A DNA stretch of 20,296 nt, taken from the IMG/VR virus record IMGVR_UViG_3300049783_000269, positions 1 to 20,296 of that record, one strand, 5' to 3'. This document shows positions 8,018 through 18,850 of the stretch, piece after piece. Source of the DNA: a virus. The position numbers and the translations under genes are program-made. Below the pieces are notes generated by a model that saw only the letters and a program-made list of their open reading frames with translations, had not been told where the DNA came from and ran no database searches. How positions within the stretch are numbered: the stretch's first letter is position 1; the number at the start of each line of letters is the position of its first letter.

Positions 8018-9520
8018 ATGGGTGTATTAAGTCCTCAATTGGGAAGTATAGTACCTTCGTCCATACAAGCAACATTAACAAGTAACTACTTGAATTTTGC
8101 TAATGGAGGTGGAAACGACTTCGCACAACAATATCTACCGGAAATATATGAAGCAGAGGTAGAGCGTTATGGAAACAGAACGTTAGCTGGCTTCTTAAGA
8201 ATGGTTGGCGCTGAAATGCCAATGATGTCTGATCAAGTAGTTTGGTCTGAGCAAAACAGATTACACATTTCTTACGAAGGTGTATCTTGTCAAGCTGTAG
8301 GTGGCGCACAAGTTGGAAATAGATTAACTCTTCCTGTAACTGCTGCTCCAAACACTAATGTTAGAAATGTAATATTTCAAAACATGACAGTTGTAATTAT
8401 GGATCCTGCAAATCCTGCTTTCACAGTAAAAGCTATCGTTACTCAATCAGGAGCGAATGGTGCTATTGGAGCAAATTTTGTAGATGTAATTCCTTACACA
8501 AGAGCTGCTGTTAACGCTGGAGCTTTAGCAACTGCTGCAACACTTAAAGTGTTTGTATATGGTTCTGAATATGAAAAAGGATCTACATTAGCTACGGCTT
8601 CTGGACAATCTATCGAGCCTCAATTATCAGTATTCTCTAACAAACCAATTATTATCAGAAACAGATACGCTGTAAGTGGATCTGATACTGCTCAAATCGG
8701 TTGGGTTGAAGTTGCTGCTGAAGACGGAACTTCTGGATACTTATGGTATTTAAAAGCTGAAGGTGAAACTAGATTACGTTTCGAAGATTACTTAGAAATG
8801 GCAATGATTGAAGGTGAATTAGCTAATGCTGCACAAGCAACTGCTATCGCTGGAAATGCTCAACTTGCATTCCCTGCTGCTGCTGCTGCACCAGCTGGTA
8901 CTATTGGTACTGAAGGTTTATTTGCTGCTATTAATAATGGTGGTAATGTACTTTCTGGTTATGCTGGATCTTTACAGGATTTTGATTCTGTATTAGAGAA
9001 TTTAGATTCTCAAGGAGCAATTGAAGAAAACATGCTTTTCTTAGATAGAAAAACTGAGTTGTTATTTGACAACATGTTAGCACAACAAAACTCTTACGGA
9101 GCTGGTGGTACATCTTACGGTGTATTCGAAAACTCTGAAGACATGGCGCTTAACTTAGGTTTCTCTGGATTTAGAAGAGGTTCTTATGATTTCTACAAGA
9201 CTTCATGGAAATACTTAAATGATGCTTCAACAAGAGGTGGTTCTGCTAACTTTGTTAACGGTGACAATATTGATGGTGTATTAGTTCCTGCTGGAACTTC
9301 TACAGTATACGATCAGTTACTTGGAACAAACATCAGACGTCCTTTCTTACATGTAAGATACAGAGCTTCTCAAGCAGATGACAGAAGAATGAAATCATGG
9401 TTAACAGGTTCTGTTGGCGGTGCTTCTACTTCTACATTAGATGCAATGGAAGTAAACTTCTTATCTGAAAGATGTTTATGTGTACAAGCTAGAAATAACT
9501 TTGTGTTATTCACAGCTTAA
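8018..9520 (+). CDS. major capsid protein
   Basis: This 500-aa protein forms the icosahedral shell. It sits after portal and scaffold genes and has the composition of a capsid protein: few cysteines, many Ala, Gly and Asn. Conserved-looking regions are FAQQYLPEIYEAEVERYGNR (35-54) followed by GFLRMVGAEMPMMSDQVVWS (58-77), which resemble capsid proteins of marine Bacteroidota and crAss-like phages as I remember them. An Ala-rich stretch lies near residues 275-298. The C-terminal end (FLSERCLCVQARNNFVLFTA, 481-500) is strongly beta. An HK97-like fold is inferred from context. A long stretch at about 110-190 (VIFQNMTVVIMDPANPAF onward) may be an insertion domain. Codons ending in C for Phe, Tyr and Asn look more frequent than in neighbours, fitting high expression. 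It is followed by a hairpin that could end or process the transcript. Confidence 0.88.
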   Translation: MGVLSPQLGSIVPSSIQATLTSNYLNFANGGGNDFAQQYLPEIYEAEVERYGNRTLAGFLRMVGAEMPMMSDQVVWSEQNRLHISYEGVSCQAVGGAQVGNRLTLPVTAAPNTNVRNVIFQNMTVVIMDPANPAFTVKAIVTQSGANGAIGANFVDVIPYTRAAVNAGALATAATLKVFVYGSEYEKGSTLATASGQSIEPQLSVFSNKPIIIRNRYAVSGSDTAQIGWVEVAAEDGTSGYLWYLKAEGETRLRFEDYLEMAMIEGELANAAQATAIAGNAQLAFPAAAAAPAGTIGTEGLFAAINNGGNVLSGYAGSLQDFDSVLENLDSQGAIEENMLFLDRKTELLFDNMLAQQNSYGAGGTSYGVFENSEDMALNLGFSGFRRGSYDFYKTSWKYLNDASTRGGSANFVNGDNIDGVLVPAGTSTVYDQLLGTNIRRPFLHVRYRASQADDRRMKSWLTGSVGGASTSTLDAMEVNFLSERCLCVQARNNFVLFTA

Positions 9521-10437: not shown

Positions 10438-11130
10438 ATGGCAATAAACGTAAACGCTGTATATAAAACAGTCTTATTAATACTTAACCAACAACAGAGA
10501 GGATATATGACTCCTGACGAGTTCAACAAAGTTGCGACTCAGGTTCAGTTAAATATATTTGAAAGGTATGAAGATGACCTTAATCAAATGTATCGTGTGC
10601 CACAAAATGATACTGAATACGCTAATCGCGTTAAAAATATTGAAGAAAATTTACAATTCTTCCAAAGAACAGGTGCTACAGCTTACGTAGGACCTCACTT
10701 TACTTTAACACCTACAGACATATATAGACTAGGATCTGTAATGTATCAAAGTGCTGAGCTAACTCAATATGCTCAAAGAAACGAATTATTACAAATTCTA
10801 AAATCTCCTTTAACACAGCCAACAAATAGTTTCCCTATATATTTATATGAGAATAATTTACTATATGTATATCCAAATACTATACAGTCTAGTATAACTG
10901 TGTCTTACCTGAAAACACCTGCAGATGTTGTATGGGGTTATTCAGTTGGTGCATTAGGACAATTCCAATACGCAGCTGGAACTTCAATAAATTTTGAATT
11001 AAATATTTCAGAGCAAACAAATGTTATAACTAGAGTGTTAGCTTATGCTGGGGTTATAATAAATGATCCTACTATAATACAAGTGGCTCAAGGAGAAATA
11101 CAACAAGAAGAACAAAACTCAAAAATATAA
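10438..11130 (+). CDS. putative head-tail connector (ring) protein
   Basis: This 230-aa protein opens with INVNAVYKTVLLILNQQQRG (3-22), then YMTPDEFNKVATQVQLNIFE (23-42). Small ring proteins of crAss-like and marine Bacteroidota podoviruses have a similar helical start, as I remember them. The middle part is beta-rich (IYRLGSVMYQSAEL, then SFPIYLYENNLLYVYPNTIQ), and the C-terminus returns to helices ending in an acidic, Gln-rich tail. It has no cysteines and no signal sequence. By position it would form one of the rings between portal and tail hub. The next gene starts three bases after its stop, so they are probably co-translated. Family assignment is from memory of sequence pattern and is not verified. 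Confidence 0.65.
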   Translation: MAINVNAVYKTVLLILNQQQRGYMTPDEFNKVATQVQLNIFERYEDDLNQMYRVPQNDTEYANRVKNIEENLQFFQRTGATAYVGPHFTLTPTDIYRLGSVMYQSAELTQYAQRNELLQILKSPLTQPTNSFPIYLYENNLLYVYPNTIQSSITVSYLKTPADVVWGYSVGALGQFQYAAGTSINFELNISEQTNVITRVLAYAGVIINDPTIIQVAQGEIQQEEQNSKI

Positions 11131-11133
11131 CAA

Positions 11134-12345
11134 ATGGCAAGACCTGATGGAGGATTAATCCAAGAAACAAATCTACAATATTACGCGGGCGCGCAGATTA
11201 TATATACTTCAGTTAACGGAACTACTGCTTATACGTTTACTTTTAATACTATATTAAACTTAGGTAGCGCTACAAGTTTCGCACCAACAGACCCTGCTTT
11301 TGGTTTAAATAATTTTAGAATATATACAAGTCCTAATGGATTAGCTAATTGGACAGAATACATAACAACATACACGTTAGTAAATGGACCTACAGGTAGT
11401 GTAATAAATTTAGCAGCTCAAAATATTGGTACGTATGTAAAAGTACAATTAAAAAGTGATGCTGTAGCAAACAATTACGGAGGTTACCAATACACTAGTT
11501 TAAACGATATAGTTAATAATTTTATTGTAGGTTACGTTGGCCAAGATAAATTAATACCAAGAGTTAATAGAACTGATGTAATATTTCATGCTAAGCGTGG
11601 ATTACAAGAGTTTAGTTTTGATACGTTAAAAAGTATTAAATCACAAGAGTTAAGTGTACCACCTAGTTTAGGAGTTACTATACCACAAGATTACGTCAAC
11701 TACGTTAAGTTATCATGGATAGATGGATCAGGTGTTAAACACACTATATATCCTACGCAACTAACTAGCAGTCCTTCTAACGCGCCTATTCAAGATCAAG
11801 CTGGTAACATAATACAAGATAACTTTTCTGAAAATATAGATGGAACATCAATAACAAACGAAAGATGGAGAGGTAATAACACGTCTAATATAACTGGTTT
11901 AGGCTTTGCAACTTCTAATGCTCCAGAGGTTTGGATGTATGATTGGTGGGGTGAAAACGCTTGGGGAGCTGGAGGTTACTACGGTCAAAGATACGGTGGA
12001 GATCCAGTTAACATGCAAATGAACGGATGGTTTAATATAGATGAAGCACAGGGAACATTTAATTTTTCTAGTGACTTAGCTGGTAAATTAATAATATTAG
12101 AATATATATCTGATGGACTTGCTTATGACTTAGATTCTAAAGTCCCTAAGATGGCTGAAGAAGCAATGTACCAACATTTACTATATAGTATATTGTCTAC
12201 AAGAAGAGATACAGTTTCTATCGCTCCACAATATAAACAACAAAGATACGCTGCTTTGCGTAATGCTAAAATAAGATTATCTAATATCAAGCTAGATGAA
12301 ATCGTTCAGGTAATGAGAGGTAAATCTAAATGGATAAAATCATAA
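11134..12345 (+). CDS. putative connector/tail ring protein
   Basis: This 403-aa protein has three parts. An N-terminal beta-rich domain (about 15-115) contains PNGLANWTEYITTYTLVNG. A core starts around LNDIVNNFIVGYVGQDKLIP (about 126-145) and includes VIFHAKRGLQEFSFDTLKSI. A Trp/Gly-rich insertion lies at about 265-305 (VWMYDWWGENAWGAGGYYGQ). The C-terminus has long helices (PKMAEEAMYQHLLYSILSTR) ending in VMRGKSKWIKS. The helical core and the RGKSKWIK end resemble a conserved tail/ring protein of crAss-like and related phages, comparable in role to the P22 gp4 or T7 gp11 adaptors. It is placed between the 230-aa ring protein and the tail hub with only 3-base gaps. The role is inferred from position and pattern; no enzymatic motif is seen. 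Confidence 0.65.
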   Translation: MARPDGGLIQETNLQYYAGAQIIYTSVNGTTAYTFTFNTILNLGSATSFAPTDPAFGLNNFRIYTSPNGLANWTEYITTYTLVNGPTGSVINLAAQNIGTYVKVQLKSDAVANNYGGYQYTSLNDIVNNFIVGYVGQDKLIPRVNRTDVIFHAKRGLQEFSFDTLKSIKSQELSVPPSLGVTIPQDYVNYVKLSWIDGSGVKHTIYPTQLTSSPSNAPIQDQAGNIIQDNFSENIDGTSITNERWRGNNTSNITGLGFATSNAPEVWMYDWWGENAWGAGGYYGQRYGGDPVNMQMNGWFNIDEAQGTFNFSSDLAGKLIILEYISDGLAYDLDSKVPKMAEEAMYQHLLYSILSTRRDTVSIAPQYKQQRYAALRNAKIRLSNIKLDEIVQVMRGKSKWIKS

Positions 12346-12348
12346 TAA

Positions 12349-15300
12349 ATGGCTGAAATCAAAAACACTTTTCTAAAGCAGAGAATGAATCAAGACATTG
12401 ACTCTCGTATATTACCTAACGGTGAGTATAGAGAAGCTATAAACTTAATGATTAGTAGATCAGAAGGATCAACTGTTGGTGAGTTTGAAAACGCTCTTGG
12501 TAATAGCTCTATACGTAGTTTAAACACTAGTAACTCTGTTATAATTGGTCATTATGTAAACGAAACTACTAATAAAGTTTATTTATTTGCTAGTGACTAT
12601 GATAATGCAAATGGTGTTAGGTCTACTAGTGCCAATAACTTTATATATGAGTTGACGCTAGAAGGTTCTTTTAATTTAATAACTTTGGTTACCGGTAATT
12701 TTTTAAACTTTAATAAATCTTTTCCTGTAATTGGAGTTAATCTAGTTGAAGAATTATTATTTTTTACAGACAATTTAAACCAACCTAGAAAAATAAATAT
12801 ATCTTTAGCCAACCCAACACAGTTAGCTACACCTATTCATTACGTAAATGAAGACCAAATATCAGTAGCTAAATACGCCCCTTGTGACCCAATTGTTACA
12901 ATGCAAAGAGTTAAGTTTGCTATAACAGGAACAGCTGCTTCTGATGACACTACTATTAGCATTAATGATTCAGCTGGTATAAAAATAGGAGATTTTATAT
13001 CTCCATATGACACTATAAGTCCTTCTACTTTTCCAACGCCATTGTCTCAATGGAACAAAGCTAATTATGTTGTAGATGTACCTGCTGATGGAGTTTCTTT
13101 AGTTTTATCAAAACCTATGACGGCTCCTAATAGTTTTGATTTAATAGCGCAAAGATCTACAATGACCAATAAAACATCATTGTTTAATTCTAATGGTCTT
13201 GCGGCATCAGCTACGGTAGCCGGTAATAGTACTGGTGGAGCGGCAGGTTCTTTAAGTGCTACTTATCAATTCAGCGTGGACGCTACAAACTTTTCACCAA
13301 ATGTAATACCTAGAATAGGCGACATAGTAACTGGTACTGGCGTATCTGCTAACACAACAATATTAACTACCTCAGCTTCTTACGGAGCAACTACCACGGT
13401 ATGGACAGTTACTTTATCCAAAATAACAGCTATAGCTGATGGAACTGGTAATGCTATTAACGTAGCTGTTAACCAAAATTATGACGCTAGTTGGCAAGGT
13501 GACGCTGCTTTCTTAGAAGATAAATTTGTTAGATTTAGTTATAGATTTAAATTTGAAGATAATGAGTATTCTTTAATGGCTCCTTTTTCTCAACCAATGT
13601 TTATACCTAAGCAATACAGTGAGTTTGGCGCAGGCCAAAATCCAGACTTTGTTGATATGGACAATGCCTATAAATCAACTATACTTAATTGGTTTGAAAA
13701 CAGTGTAGACAATATAGTTCTAAGAACTCCAATGCCTTTTAGCACTCCGGCTTTAATGACGTCAGAACTTTTAGCTATTGAAGTAGATTTATTATACAAA
13801 GAATCTGACGCGTTAGCGGTTAAAGTTTTAGATACTGTTAGGTTTTCTGATTTACAAAGTAGTGCTTTTGATGAAATAATATATTCTGATCCTATTCACG
13901 GAGAAGTTGTTACGCAAGATTTTTATGATTACAACTACGCTTCTAGTAAACCATATAAAACATTACCAACAAGTCAAACAACTAGAGTTTATGATAAAGT
14001 TCCTATAAAAGCTTTAGCACAAGAACTTATAGGCAATAGAGTAGTGTATGGTAATTATGTAGACAAACATAGTAGCCCTGATTCAATACAATTTAGTGCT
14101 TTGATTAGTGACAAAAGACCTTATAATGATAACTTTATACAATATCCTTATCATAATTTAAAACAAAGTAGAACCTATCAAGTTGGCTTTGTGTTATCAG
14201 ATAGATACGGAAGACAGTCAGATGTTATATTATCTTCTTATGACAATGTTGACGGGGTAAACGGATCAACTGTTTTTGCTCCTTATAATAGTATTACAGA
14301 ACAAATAAATAATCCTATAATAGATTGGTTAGGAACTTCACTTAATGTAAGGGTAGATTCAGCAATAGGCCAAGCTACAACTGGTGGACAACCTGGAATA
14401 TGGAATGCTACAACAAATCCTTTAGGATGGTACTCATACAAGGTAGTTGTTAAGCAACAAGAGCAAGAGTATTACAATGTTTACTTACCTGGTTTTGTAA
14501 ATGGTTTACCTATAGTAGGAACTGATGAAGAAAATAAATCTTCTTTTTCTGTATTACTAAGTGATAACATAAACAAAGTACCTAGAAATTTAAATGAAGT
14601 TGGGCCAACAGACACAGAATATAGTAGTAGTGAGCTTTTATATATTAGAGTAAATAACCCCAATATAAACGCGAAGTCAGGTAGACCGTATGGTTACCCA
14701 TTAAAAACAACACCTTGGAATCAGCAATATTATCCAGGTTTTTTTAACCAAGAAGTATTGTCTATAGCTACTATTAAAGACATGGAAATATCAGGAATAC
14801 CTTTTAAGCCAAACGCACCTGAAGGTGATTATGGTCAAGTTGGTAGTCTTTTTGATAATGCCACAGGTGAAACAACACCAGTAAGTATTGGATCTATTCC
14901 GTGGGGAGTATCTCCTAAGTTACAACCTTTTTACAACTCTGATTTAAATCCTTTTGCAATTAAAATAGATACAACGGCTAACGGTAAAGTTGCTTTAGTA
15001 GCTACAGCGCCTATTGTACCAGGTGGAGTGGGTGCAGATACTAATGCTGAAGATGGAACTTCTGCTACCCCTGGAATTATTACAATGCAACCTTTCTTAA
15101 GTGTTGCAGAAACAAAACCTGTGTATTCTTTATTGGAAATATTCTGGGAAACTTCTTTGCAGGGAAAGATAAACACTTTAAACAATTTAATAGATGCTCA
15201 ATACGCTGGTATAACAACAATGAGTAGTACTGCTGCTGCATTTTTAGAAAGTGATACTACTGCAACTCAAATTGGTAATTCACTTACTTTTGCGACAGGT

Positions 15301-16455
15301 GGTGGCACAACGGTAACAGACGCGAGTCTAATAACAGTAACTTTATTGTCTGCTTTTAGACAAAGTGATGTTAACCAGACTACCGATGTAAAGACTAATT
15401 TTGATTTAGCTTTAAAAACTGGTCAAGCTCTAGCTGTCTATGATTTAGACACTGCGACAACTTTTTTCTATAGCACTACTTCACAGTTAGCTTTATCTAC
15501 AGATGTTTACGACATAACAGTACAAACAGTATACGACGACGGTAGTGGTAACGCAGGTTTTCCGTTTACTGATACACATAGTTACGTGGCAACACTTGAC
15601 AATGTGGCTCCTTCGTTTACAACAAACCCTATGAATCCTAGCGGTATAACAATTGCTAGCACAACCATAAAGCAATACGCTGCCGTAAATGGAACTGCTA
15701 CCGCGGCTAATGAAACAGATCAATTAGTATTTTCTTTAGGATCTGGTAACCCATCTTCAGTAACTAGTCAATTTGCAATGAGTTCTTCTGGACTACTAAC
15801 AACAAACAGCGCTTTAACTGAAGGCGATACTTGGTCAATTATAATCACAGTAACAGATGTAGATGGTAATGGAATTTCTACTAACGCAACTATAACGTTT
15901 ACCGTAGGCGTGCAACACGTGCCGCAAGCTATATGTAACAACAATCAGCTTAGCGCTGTAGCTACTTGTACACAAAGCTACGAAGTTTTCTTTGGTGTTA
16001 GCTCTACAACAACATCAACAGGTACTTACGGAACAGTAGGCGGCGTGTTTTATCCAGGAAACTCTATACAGTTTTACAACGTAAGAGCTAATTTTTCAAA
16101 CGCAACAACCGGAGCTTTAACACAAGGTGTTATGGCTTTAACACCATTACTAACCTCTATTGGTGGTAGTGGTGGTGGTGATTTATCAGTTTACTACACT
16201 GTTCAATATAGAGCAAACGCCCAAGCTAACTGGACACAAGCTGTTGACACTGGTGGTAACAGCATATCGTCAAGACAAATAACAGCTTCAACTGGTTTTC
16301 CAGGAACAGAGACTTTAAACTTTTCTATACCAGGAGAATACAGAGCATTCTCAACTAATGTAACAGGTGAAGGTTGTACTGGAAACACAGGAGGTTTAAA
16401 GTTTAACTTTACCGACGCGACATATAGTGGGTCATGTAACCTAGGACCACTGTAA
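12349..16455 (+). CDS. large tail-hub ('muzzle/stabilization'-like) protein with Ig/cadherin-like C-terminus
   Basis: The 1368-aa product is the largest here. Its N-terminus (FLKQRMNQDIDSRILPNGEY, then REAINLMISRSEGSTVGEFE) is like the opening of tail-hub proteins called stabilization or muzzle protein in crAss-like phages. A further family-like stretch includes ELIGNRVVYGNYVD (about 558-571) and LKQSRTYQVGFVLSDRYGRQ (604-623). Two small beta-modules interrupt the first third (about 189-271 and 290-375). Residues about 1085-1188 resemble a cadherin-like or dystroglycan-type Ig domain (FAMSSSGLLTTNS, then SIIITVTDVDGNGISTNATI). The last 170 residues hold four of the protein's five cysteines (1196, 1207, 1343, 1363) and a Gly-rich GGSGGGD linker. 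Function inferred: closure of the portal vertex, possibly with surface or receptor contacts by the C-terminus. The propeller-like second half expected in this family is missing and is seen in the next gene. Confidence 0.68.
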   Translation: MAEIKNTFLKQRMNQDIDSRILPNGEYREAINLMISRSEGSTVGEFENALGNSSIRSLNTSNSVIIGHYVNETTNKVYLFASDYDNANGVRSTSANNFIYELTLEGSFNLITLVTGNFLNFNKSFPVIGVNLVEELLFFTDNLNQPRKINISLANPTQLATPIHYVNEDQISVAKYAPCDPIVTMQRVKFAITGTAASDDTTISINDSAGIKIGDFISPYDTISPSTFPTPLSQWNKANYVVDVPADGVSLVLSKPMTAPNSFDLIAQRSTMTNKTSLFNSNGLAASATVAGNSTGGAAGSLSATYQFSVDATNFSPNVIPRIGDIVTGTGVSANTTILTTSASYGATTTVWTVTLSKITAIADGTGNAINVAVNQNYDASWQGDAAFLEDKFVRFSYRFKFEDNEYSLMAPFSQPMFIPKQYSEFGAGQNPDFVDMDNAYKSTILNWFENSVDNIVLRTPMPFSTPALMTSELLAIEVDLLYKESDALAVKVLDTVRFSDLQSSAFDEIIYSDPIHGEVVTQDFYDYNYASSKPYKTLPTSQTTRVYDKVPIKALAQELIGNRVVYGNYVDKHSSPDSIQFSALISDKRPYNDNFIQYPYHNLKQSRTYQVGFVLSDRYGRQSDVILSSYDNVDGVNGSTVFAPYNSITEQINNPIIDWLGTSLNVRVDSAIGQATTGGQPGIWNATTNPLGWYSYKVVVKQQEQEYYNVYLPGFVNGLPIVGTDEENKSSFSVLLSDNINKVPRNLNEVGPTDTEYSSSELLYIRVNNPNINAKSGRPYGYPLKTTPWNQQYYPGFFNQEVLSIATIKDMEISGIPFKPNAPEGDYGQVGSLFDNATGETTPVSIGSIPWGVSPKLQPFYNSDLNPFAIKIDTTANGKVALVATAPIVPGGVGADTNAEDGTSATPGIITMQPFLSVAETKPVYSLLEIFWETSLQGKINTLNNLIDAQYAGITTMSSTAAAFLESDTTATQIGNSLTFATGGGTTVTDASLITVTLLSAFRQSDVNQTTDVKTNFDLALKTGQALAVYDLDTATTFFYSTTSQLALSTDVYDITVQTVYDDGSGNAGFPFTDTHSYVATLDNVAPSFTTNPMNPSGITIASTTIKQYAAVNGTATAANETDQLVFSLGSGNPSSVTSQFAMSSSGLLTTNSALTEGDTWSIIITVTDVDGNGISTNATITFTVGVQHVPQAICNNNQLSAVATCTQSYEVFFGVSSTTTSTGTYGTVGGVFYPGNSIQFYNVRANFSNATTGALTQGVMALTPLLTSIGGSGGGDLSVYYTVQYRANAQANWTQAVDTGGNSISSRQITASTGFPGTETLNFSIPGEYRAFSTNVTGEGCTGNTGGLKFNFTDATYSGSCNLGPL

Positions 16456-16485
16456 TAATCAACAAAAACAAGTAATTAATATAAT

Positions 16486-18099
16486 ATGCCACTAACACTA
16501 GAAGTTTCTTATTTTAACTCATATTACGTGAAGAGACTAGCGGATGTTCCTTACATACCTGATGTAGGAGCGGAAAGAAATGCTGTGACTACAGGTTCAG
16601 TTCCCGCTGGAAGTAATGCTACGTTTGGTGGTACTGGAATTGGTACCCCGGTTGTTGGTATGGCTATTAATGGAGCCGGTGTTGTTGGTGAGACAAAAAT
16701 AGTTACAGTAAATCAAAACCAAACTATAATAACGTTCGATAAAGACGTGACCTTTACCGCTACTAATTATACGTTTACTTATGCGTGGGTTGGGCCTCAA
16801 GTATCTAATCCAGATGAGGATTGGTACATAGAAGAATCACGCATTAGAGGAGGTTATAATAACACCTCCACTGATTATGGTGTAAAAGCATATATAGTTG
16901 AAGAACAAGATTCTCAGGCGCGTAGAGGTAACTCTCTTATATACTCTGGTATATTCAACTCAAGAACAGGTATAAACCAAACTAATCAATTTAGTGTAGC
17001 AGACGAAATAACTAGAAGTGTAGATCCAATAAGTGGATCAATACAAAAGTTGTTTGCTGAAGACACTAACTTGCTTATATTTCAAGAGCGTAAAGTTAAT
17101 AACGCATTGATAGATAAAGACGCTATATTCACAGCAGAAGGTTCTGCAATAACCACGTCAGGTAGATTAGTAATAGGACAAATAACTCCTATAGCTGGTA
17201 ACTGGGGAATAAGTAAAGATCCTTTATCGTTTGCCGTATATGGTTATCAAAAATACTTTGTTGATAGAAACAGAAACGCTGTGTTAAGATTAGCAGGTGG
17301 ACAAATAGCAGAAATATCTGGTATGGGGATGGTTGATTTTTTTAGAGATACTTTATCAGCTGTTACAAGTACTGGTGTTATATTAGGTGCTTATGATAAT
17401 CATAATCAAAATTATGTTTTATCTATACAACCTAATAATAGATACGAAATAGACGGAACAAGTTTTAAAACTTTAACCTTTGACGAAAGATCACAAGGTT
17501 GGACTAGTTTTTTTACATACAAACCAGATGCTATATTTAGTTCACAAGGTAGTTTTTACTCTGCAAAAGACAAAGGAAATAATAGTAGAATATTTAAGCA
17601 TTATACTAATCAAACTAGAAATAGTTTTTACGGATCAACAAGTAGCTCCTCTGTTCAGTTTGTATTTAATCCATCACCTAGTAATATAAAAACATTTCAA
17701 ACAATAAACTACGAAGGAACTAATGGCTGGGAAGTAACAGCGTTTCTTTCTGATGAAACAGGGTTTGATGCAGTTGCTGGTAATTGGATTAATCATGTAG
17801 ATACAATTGTAGAAGGAGCAGGAGCAAACCAATATAGAAAAATATATAGCTACGACGAAGGAGCTTATACAGAAGATAATATCCAGTACAGAGCTGGATT
17901 TGATAGAAAACAAAATAAATATATGGCAGTTATACCAAACAATACTCAAACACCTATTCCTGGAGAAGTGGTATTTGGTAATCAAACATCAGGTATAAAA
18001 GCTTATTACGCAACAGTCACTATGAAAACAGATGCAACTACTGATCCTAATGGATTAAAAGAATTGTTTGCTGTCAGTAGTACGTTTGCGCCAAGATAA
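16486..18099 (+). CDS. tail-hub protein, second (propeller-like) part
   Basis: This 537-aa protein has three visible parts. Residues 1-32 start LTLEVSYFNSYYVKRL. Residues about 33-100 form a small beta-module like those in the upstream gene (GTPVVGMAINGAGVVGETKI, then TIITFDKDVTFTATNYTFTY). The main body starts with DEDWYIEESRIRGGYNNTST and runs through GSIQKLFAEDTNLLIFQERK, AVYGYQKYFVDRNRNAVLRL, FFRDTLSA and TLTFDERSQGWTSFFTYKPD. The body's repeated 'tyrosine/phenylalanine, Asp, Arg, Asn, then Leu' strands resemble the beta-propeller half of tail-hub proteins of crAss-like phages. It therefore probably assembles with the 1368-aa protein as parts of one hub. It has no signal peptide and no catalytic motif. 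The start at 16486 follows an A/T-rich leader, 30 bases after the upstream stop. Confidence 0.65.
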   Translation: MPLTLEVSYFNSYYVKRLADVPYIPDVGAERNAVTTGSVPAGSNATFGGTGIGTPVVGMAINGAGVVGETKIVTVNQNQTIITFDKDVTFTATNYTFTYAWVGPQVSNPDEDWYIEESRIRGGYNNTSTDYGVKAYIVEEQDSQARRGNSLIYSGIFNSRTGINQTNQFSVADEITRSVDPISGSIQKLFAEDTNLLIFQERKVNNALIDKDAIFTAEGSAITTSGRLVIGQITPIAGNWGISKDPLSFAVYGYQKYFVDRNRNAVLRLAGGQIAEISGMGMVDFFRDTLSAVTSTGVILGAYDNHNQNYVLSIQPNNRYEIDGTSFKTLTFDERSQGWTSFFTYKPDAIFSSQGSFYSAKDKGNNSRIFKHYTNQTRNSFYGSTSSSSVQFVFNPSPSNIKTFQTINYEGTNGWEVTAFLSDETGFDAVAGNWINHVDTIVEGAGANQYRKIYSYDEGAYTEDNIQYRAGFDRKQNKYMAVIPNNTQTPIPGEVVFGNQTSGIKAYYATVTMKTDATTDPNGLKELFAVSSTFAPR

Positions 18100-18118
18100 T
18101 AAATTAAAATAAATAAAT

Positions 18119-18850
18119 ATGCCATTAGCAACAACACTAGGAGTAGCTTCAAGCGTGATAACTGGAATCATAGGTGGAGCGGCTGCTAAAAAAGCAAAGA
18201 GAGCCGCTGCAAAAAAAGCCAGAGCTTTATCCAAAAAACTAGATTTTTTAGAAAACAATAGACAAGATATAGTTAATCCTTATGAAGGTATTAGTGATCT
18301 GTCTAGCATGGCTACCGATAGATCTGGGCAAATGTCAAATGCATATAATAATTTATCTGTAGCTACTCAAGCAGCTGAGATGCAAATAGAAGAAGCTGAT
18401 ATTGCGTTAGCAAATACTTTAGACACGTTAATGGCAAGTGGTGCTGGTGCTGGAGGAGCAACCGCTTTAGCTCAAGCAGCTTTGCAATCTAAGAAAAGCG
18501 TAGCAGCAAGTATTGAAAGTCAAGAAAAATCTAATGAAGATAAAAGAGCACAAGGTGAAGCTGATTTAGAAAGAAGACAGCTAGCTGAGAAACAAAGAAT
18601 AGAAGGTATATCAATGAGTCAAGCAGAAAAAGTTCAACAAGCAGAAGTATCTGGAGCTCAATTTGTTTTCAGTGCAACCGAACAAAGAGAAGATGCCAAA
18701 ATAGATAGAGTAGCTGGTCAATTAGATAATGCTCAAGCTCAAATGGCACAAGCAAGAGCAGATGGAACAGCTGCAATAACAGGAGCAATTGGCGGTATAG
18801 CAACCGCGTTTACACCAAGTTCAGGAACCCCAGCAACTAACAAAGATTAA
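18119..18850 (+). CDS. putative internal/ejection protein (Ala/Gln-rich)
   Basis: This 243-aa protein begins with a short hydrophobic Gly-rich segment (SSVITGIIGGAAAKKAKRAA, 12-31) followed by a strongly basic Lys/Arg/Ala stretch. It then becomes a long, Ala/Gln/Glu-rich helical rod (AATQAAEMQIEEADIALANT region, about 80-200). It ends with another small hydrophobic part (ITGAIGGIATAFTP, about 221-234). Two glycine-zipper-like hydrophobic ends around a helical rod resemble internal virion proteins ejected with DNA by podoviruses, such as T7 gp14 or P22 gp7. The comparison is by architecture only. Its place after the tail-hub genes fits this. The downstream gene begins after only two bases. Confidence in the gene is high; confidence in its role is modest. 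Confidence 0.55.
   Translation: MPLATTLGVASSVITGIIGGAAAKKAKRAAAKKARALSKKLDFLENNRQDIVNPYEGISDLSSMATDRSGQMSNAYNNLSVATQAAEMQIEEADIALANTLDTLMASGAGAGGATALAQAALQSKKSVAASIESQEKSNEDKRAQGEADLERRQLAEKQRIEGISMSQAEKVQQAEVSGAQFVFSATEQREDAKIDRVAGQLDNAQAQMAQARADGTAAITGAIGGIATAFTPSSGTPATNKD

Follow-up and report, generated by a model that had tools for sequence, protein, structure and literature searches.

The muzzle family of crAss-like phages is divided between two adjacent genes in a large clade of viral contigs

The closest described system is gp44 of phiCrAss001 (PDB 7QOK), in which the muzzle is built from one 1371-aa chain. The muzzle is highly conserved among crassviruses and varies by insertions, a tip domain is inserted between Ig strands G and H (gp44 residues 940-1012), and gp44 has a ring-joining domain and a propeller in common with the T7 nozzle (PMC10172136). 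Single-gene muzzles are also carried by the Crassvirales phages phi14:2, DAC15, cr55_1 and cr108_1, by many contigs, and by the cultured phages Cellulophaga phi38:1 (gp97, 1324 aa) and Flavobacterium elemo (gp22, 1493 aa). Judged by the muzzle, the nearest cultured relatives of the virus analysed here are Pervagoviridae, which include phi38:1, and Elemovirus; they originate from seawater and are not listed under Crassvirales in their records. A non-exhaustive search of the open-access literature yielded no paper on a split muzzle; the papers found describe one chain that is variable through insertions.

The window, by which we mean the whole 20,296-base virus record analysed, reads in order terminase, portal, one unassigned gene and a capsid-type structural protein, followed by two ring/adaptor-like proteins, ORF A, ORF B and two more genes. 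The order from ring/adaptor-like genes to muzzle is common to the window, phi38:1 and elemo. Phi38:1 gp97 and elemo gp22 are about 30% identical to the window's proteins and share gene order until the muzzle, but each is a single gene, whereas in the window the single muzzle slot directly behind the ring-like genes is filled by A and B together. Both ORFs were found where an earlier sequence-only reading had placed them. The features of the locus, all on the + strand, are as follows.

10438..12345, +, two ring/adaptor-like structural genes upstream of A (phrog_14543, phrog_13977)
12349..16455, +, ORF A, muzzle N-terminal chain, 1368 aa (phrog_14478, E 2e-38; AF2 model of residues 1-1200, pLDDT 81; covers positions 1-339 of the single-chain-relative profile)
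12349..12888, +, N-terminal segment of A (residues 1-180), conserved and by homology the first part of the propeller
12946..13488, +, variable loop-1 insertion, A residues ~200-380, where identity and occupancy fall
13501..15153, +, A residues ~385-935, muzzle middle, by homology the putative Ig-like and crass-domain region (conservation; crAss-like stabilization proteins matched by fold in BFVD)
15109..15153, +, strand motif ETKPVYSLLEIFWET, A residues 921-935, the final muzzle element ahead of the break
15184..15918, +, two predicted cadherin-like domains, A residues ~946-1190 (PDB profile match; Foldseek)
15934..16452, +, Cys-containing C-terminal domain, A residues 1196-1368 (Cys 1196, 1207, 1343 and 1363)
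16456..16485, +, A-B spacer with two additional in-frame TAA codons
16468..16476, +, conserved leader element ACAAGTAAT, 9 nt upstream of the B start codon
16486..18099, +, ORF B, muzzle C-terminal chain, 537 aa (phrog_14478, E 5e-41; crAss_MUZ and crAss_MUZ_C)
16576..16821, +, B residues ~31-112, extra insert, longer among the window's closest kin
16822..17745, +, conserved core of B (residues 113-420), by homology the later blades of the propeller (hhalign)
17614..17940, +, crAss_MUZ_C domain, B residues 377-485 (Pfam PF25729, E 2e-10; 36/36 B relatives)

A and B match opposite ends of one muzzle family. The PHROG family phrog_14478 matches A over three stretches, the best of which covers profile positions 1-175, and matches B at positions 940-1227. 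Pfam crAss_MUZ (profile 1042-1224) and crAss_MUZ_C both match B, and the latter matches every B relative tested. The window's A has no Pfam match; crAss_MUZ matches 9 of 26 A homologues, at the N-terminus of the model wherever positions were given. In profile comparisons (hhalign), A aligned with phi38:1 gp97 residues 1-401 (E 9e-48) and gp44 residues 1-151 (E 2e-7), and B with phi38:1 gp97 residues 876-1164 (E 2.5e-40) and gp44 residues 1035-1292 (E 2e-10). The corresponding blastp alignments to gp44, of A with residues 1-149 (E 8e-6) and of B with residues 1055-1296 (E 6.5e-9), carry E-values that refer to a very small set of subjects. Searches of the PDB by sequence and by profile returned no matches for B and cadherins only for A. 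The window thus resembles phiCrAss001 in its homology to gp44 at both ends, one end in A and the other in B, and differs from it in that its muzzle takes up two genes, broken near residue 944 of gp44, and has a cadherin-like extension. These results bear out the sequence-only reading, which had assigned the N-terminus and middle of A to the muzzle family of crAss-like phages and the propeller half to the separate 537-aa gene. The segments on which it drew were located as claimed: MNQDIDSRILPNGEYREAIN begins at A residue 13, YQVGFVLSDRYGRQS lies around A residues 610-624, and YGYQKYFVDRNRNAVLRL and FDERSQGWTSFFTY lie in B and align to the later half of the single-chain relatives.

A profile of 1309 positions was built solely from 24 single-chain relatives. 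Matches of 117 non-redundant A proteins start at about position 1 and never extend beyond position 605, and those of 116 B proteins begin at positions 855-870, with one exception at 902; positions 605-855 are a fast-evolving tip region in which the profile is powerless, and the A tip domain has diverged too far for tests based on sequence. Neither protein matches the portion borne by the other. A therefore lacks any match to the later half, B belongs to the C-terminal half of the family, and a whole propeller in a single chain is replaced by separate parts in A and B. We regard it as confirmed, at the level of sequence, that A and B are complementary halves of one family and that the split is real and conserved. 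In annotation, two such muzzle halves are easily recorded as unrelated proteins.

The position of the break was mapped with a 30-aa profile representing A's final conserved strand, which in the window reads ETKPVYSLLEIFWET. Single-chain proteins are matched by this profile (best E 3e-6), in most cases about 95-125 residues ahead of the B core. In the four single-chain proteins in which both flanking motifs were found, the loop in which the break falls is 16, 16, 20 and 32 residues long, the last being that of phi38:1. B starts just past this loop, a few residues ahead of the following conserved motif. On gp44, whose structure is solved, the first residues of B fall close to residue 944; only the B side was used for this mapping, as the extension of A made a full-length alignment misplace the strand motif. 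In two single-chain proteins (L211 and L240) the break loop is larger by roughly 90-100 residues, which fits a state of insertion before fission.

The extension gained by A is placed exactly at the break loop, and conservation of A drops past this point. Among 101 split A proteins, 264-972 residues (median 460) follow the strand motif, compared with 433 in the window. The AlphaFold model of A residues 1-1200 (pTM 0.72) matched tandem cadherin domains in Foldseek searches, the best at E 1.3e-9 over 249 columns, and a cadherin profile from the PDB matched the end of A at E 2.6e-4; Pfam Cadherin matches in A relatives were below the cut-off. Residues 1196-1368 gave no Pfam match and no known family was found for them, and a regular-expression search for lectin-like motifs in the extension yielded nothing useful. 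The extension is accordingly predicted to consist of two cadherin-like domains and a Cys-containing tail, in agreement with the cadherin-like and Cys-containing regions previously noted at the end of A.

The two-gene layout occurs in all complete members of a large clade of viral contigs, as well as in a Bacteroidetes MAG contig with A and B arranged as in the window, so neither chance nor error explains it. In an initial classification, 159 loci were split and 6 single-chain, with some contigs double-counted and the frameshifted Maribacter phage Panino counted as split. A later set comprises 182 split pairs with spacers of 3-93 bases (median 30) and eight others with a longer gap. Four loci have a related gene of 261-339 aa between A and B (L048 6867-7886, L051 6906-7880, L052 6975-7913 and L150 6092-6877), and two have a gene for a protein of 145-159 aa (L040 7363-7842 and L127 6396-6833); the L040 protein matched nucleotidyltransferases weakly, at E 0.004, below the cut-off. 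The motif A[ACT][AG]AGT[AG]AT was found in 84 of 109 non-redundant spacers, usually 8-9 bases upstream of the B ATG, compared with a mean of 1.5 in shuffled spacers and 4 of 585 regions upstream of other genes. Some other genes are preceded by conserved leaders of their own, so the B leader may be a translation or processing signal.

Several accounts compete with that of two genuine, co-functioning genes. The split could be an assembly or nonsense error, or could be bypassed by readthrough or programmed frameshifting to give one long protein. The window's A and B do share a frame, across a 30-base spacer, and some loci (L092, L174 and L263) have frameshifts elsewhere. However, B starts with ATG in all 182 loci, its M1 is invariant among relatives and preceded by the leader element, the frame relation of A to B is distributed 78/55/49, and 178 of the 182 loci have at least one further A-frame stop ahead of B codon 20; in the window, A terminates with TAATAA, and there is a third in-frame TAA ahead of the B ATG. 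The ATG starts, varying frames and further stops exclude readthrough, frameshifting and sequencing error, and we find this account hardly credible. Adjacent genes for complementary parts of one protein would in principle also fit post-translational splicing by a split intein. A C-intein segment would be expected at the start of B, yet no more than a few residues separate its first Met from the onset of muzzle homology, which leaves no room for one, and A ends in cadherin-like and Cys-containing domains with no intein family matched; splicing of this kind is scarcely conceivable here. It could further be argued from the long extension and its adhesin-like domains that A lies outside the nozzle as a separate fibre-like adhesin, with a hub made of B and other proteins. 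That the N-terminal segment of A, which forms the start of the propeller in gp44, is among its most conserved blocks, and that B is without the first propeller segments, makes this very unlikely.

On the direction of change, the sequence-only reading had left room for either an ancestral protein that was split, with its first part gaining surface domains, or two ancestral hub subunits. A tree built from the B core separates the single-chain from the split forms by one starred branch, and the exceptions on the single-chain side, L174 and L263, are both frameshifted copies. A single change accounts for the C-type split. Because of its length, the gp44 branch cannot root this tree, so the direction rests on distant outgroups, and this softness of the root is what would allow two ancestral subunits and an origin of the single-chain forms by fusion. 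Against fusion, the records examined from Crassvirales, Pervagoviridae and Elemovirus all have one chain. T7 gp12 likewise is one chain. We consider fusion unlikely, and the proposal of two ancestral subunits is disfavoured, with single-chain forms beyond the starred branch and every outgroup examined in one piece; the placement of the extension exactly at the break and the single-chain outgroups speak for the splitting of one ancestral muzzle. When the split clade was put to an AU test on a short alignment, p was 0.051, with unknown-labelled rows, including fragments of the split clade, kept outside the clade. Without the unknown rows, three changes were counted in total, which we read as one C-type and two N-type changes.

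It is therefore very probable, in our judgement, that A and B are halves of one tail-tip muzzle (gatekeeper) subunit that became separate genes through fission. We hypothesize that a domain was inserted in a tolerant loop, and that a translation stop and restart would have arisen later. By analogy with the structure of gp44, we infer that the muzzle is made of two kinds of chain and bears a free terminus at its tip: six A and six B chains would co-assemble, with the beta-propeller and one Ig-like domain completed between chains. The break loop would point to the distal tip, so that the free C-terminus of A would present its cadherin-like and other domains to the host, while B would keep the ring-joining end of the muzzle. 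Matched supply of the two chains could be secured by neighbouring genes and the conserved leader before B. Such a locus would offer a testable case in which an internal loop becomes a free display terminus while the gate that holds the packaged genome is kept.

Structure models of the single chains were compared with this proposal. The AF2 model of B (pLDDT 57) has as its best PDB match the phiCrAss001 muzzle (7qok_A, E 1.4e-11), followed by tail proteins of SU10 and Pa223, with T7 gp12 lower. The T7 gp12 and SU10 nozzle proteins thus also match B, but more weakly, and they are single chains without the crAss-type tip domain. The model of A matches crAss-like stabilization proteins in BFVD; against the PDB, cadherins dominate its 50 best matches, and phiCrAss001 gp44 is not among these. 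With A and B modelled separately, prediction confidence is low in conserved segments of both chains (A residues 1-51 and B residues 101-255), in line with domains that are completed between chains; for B residues 101-255 the low confidence may stem from a shallow alignment (Neff 2.6).

A second break was found at loop 1. In six further loci (L281, L296, L297, L312, L318 and L322), an N gene spans profile positions 1-152/158 and the next gene continues from 157-158, separated by a spacer of 2-3 bases; the PHROG match agrees for L296. As in the window, the muzzle is in two and the new C-terminus is extended, here by about 180 residues after the muzzle part. The break differs in position, at profile ~155 (residue ~165) compared with ~850 in the clade of the window, and on a short-core tree the loop-1 split requires two changes. 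Two members of the window's own clade (L069 and L074) have a Fib_succ_major domain inserted in loop 1, at A residues ~200-400, with the gene unbroken. Two insertion-tolerant loops of the muzzle have thus each turned into a gene boundary. A large clade has its muzzle cut in two and other lineages have theirs cut elsewhere, with sequence added at the new end every time. We lean slightly towards the broader view that repeated fission of the gatekeeper, at one loop once in a large clade and independently at a second loop elsewhere, is a route to free tail-tip ends for exchangeable adhesin domains, with chains that complete each other's domains.

Some candidate splits were rejected. In Maribacter phage Panino the pieces are in different frames and the break lies inside the core, which places a frameshift at another site; in the deposited genome (L082) it interrupts the muzzle gene at 8303-8414, as an error or a real break. 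L174 and L263 were likewise rejected as splits within the single-chain group, the missing residues being present in another frame. In L092 and L150, A itself is broken, by what looks like a frameshift in L092.

Other differences were observed around the locus. The PHROG match of the second ring-like protein of the window (11134-12345) spans 113-392 and leaves an N-terminal segment of ~110 aa uncovered; the phi38:1 gene at this position is shorter. No small gene follows the muzzle in the window (18099-18119), where phi38:1 has gp98 (132 aa); unlike the window, split loci L092 and L333 have a small gene of 147-155 aa after the muzzle. L060 and L076 lie on one contig of 129537 b (IMGVR_UViG_3300047157_000162), which has two different muzzle loci 63 kb apart and is perhaps two joined genomes.
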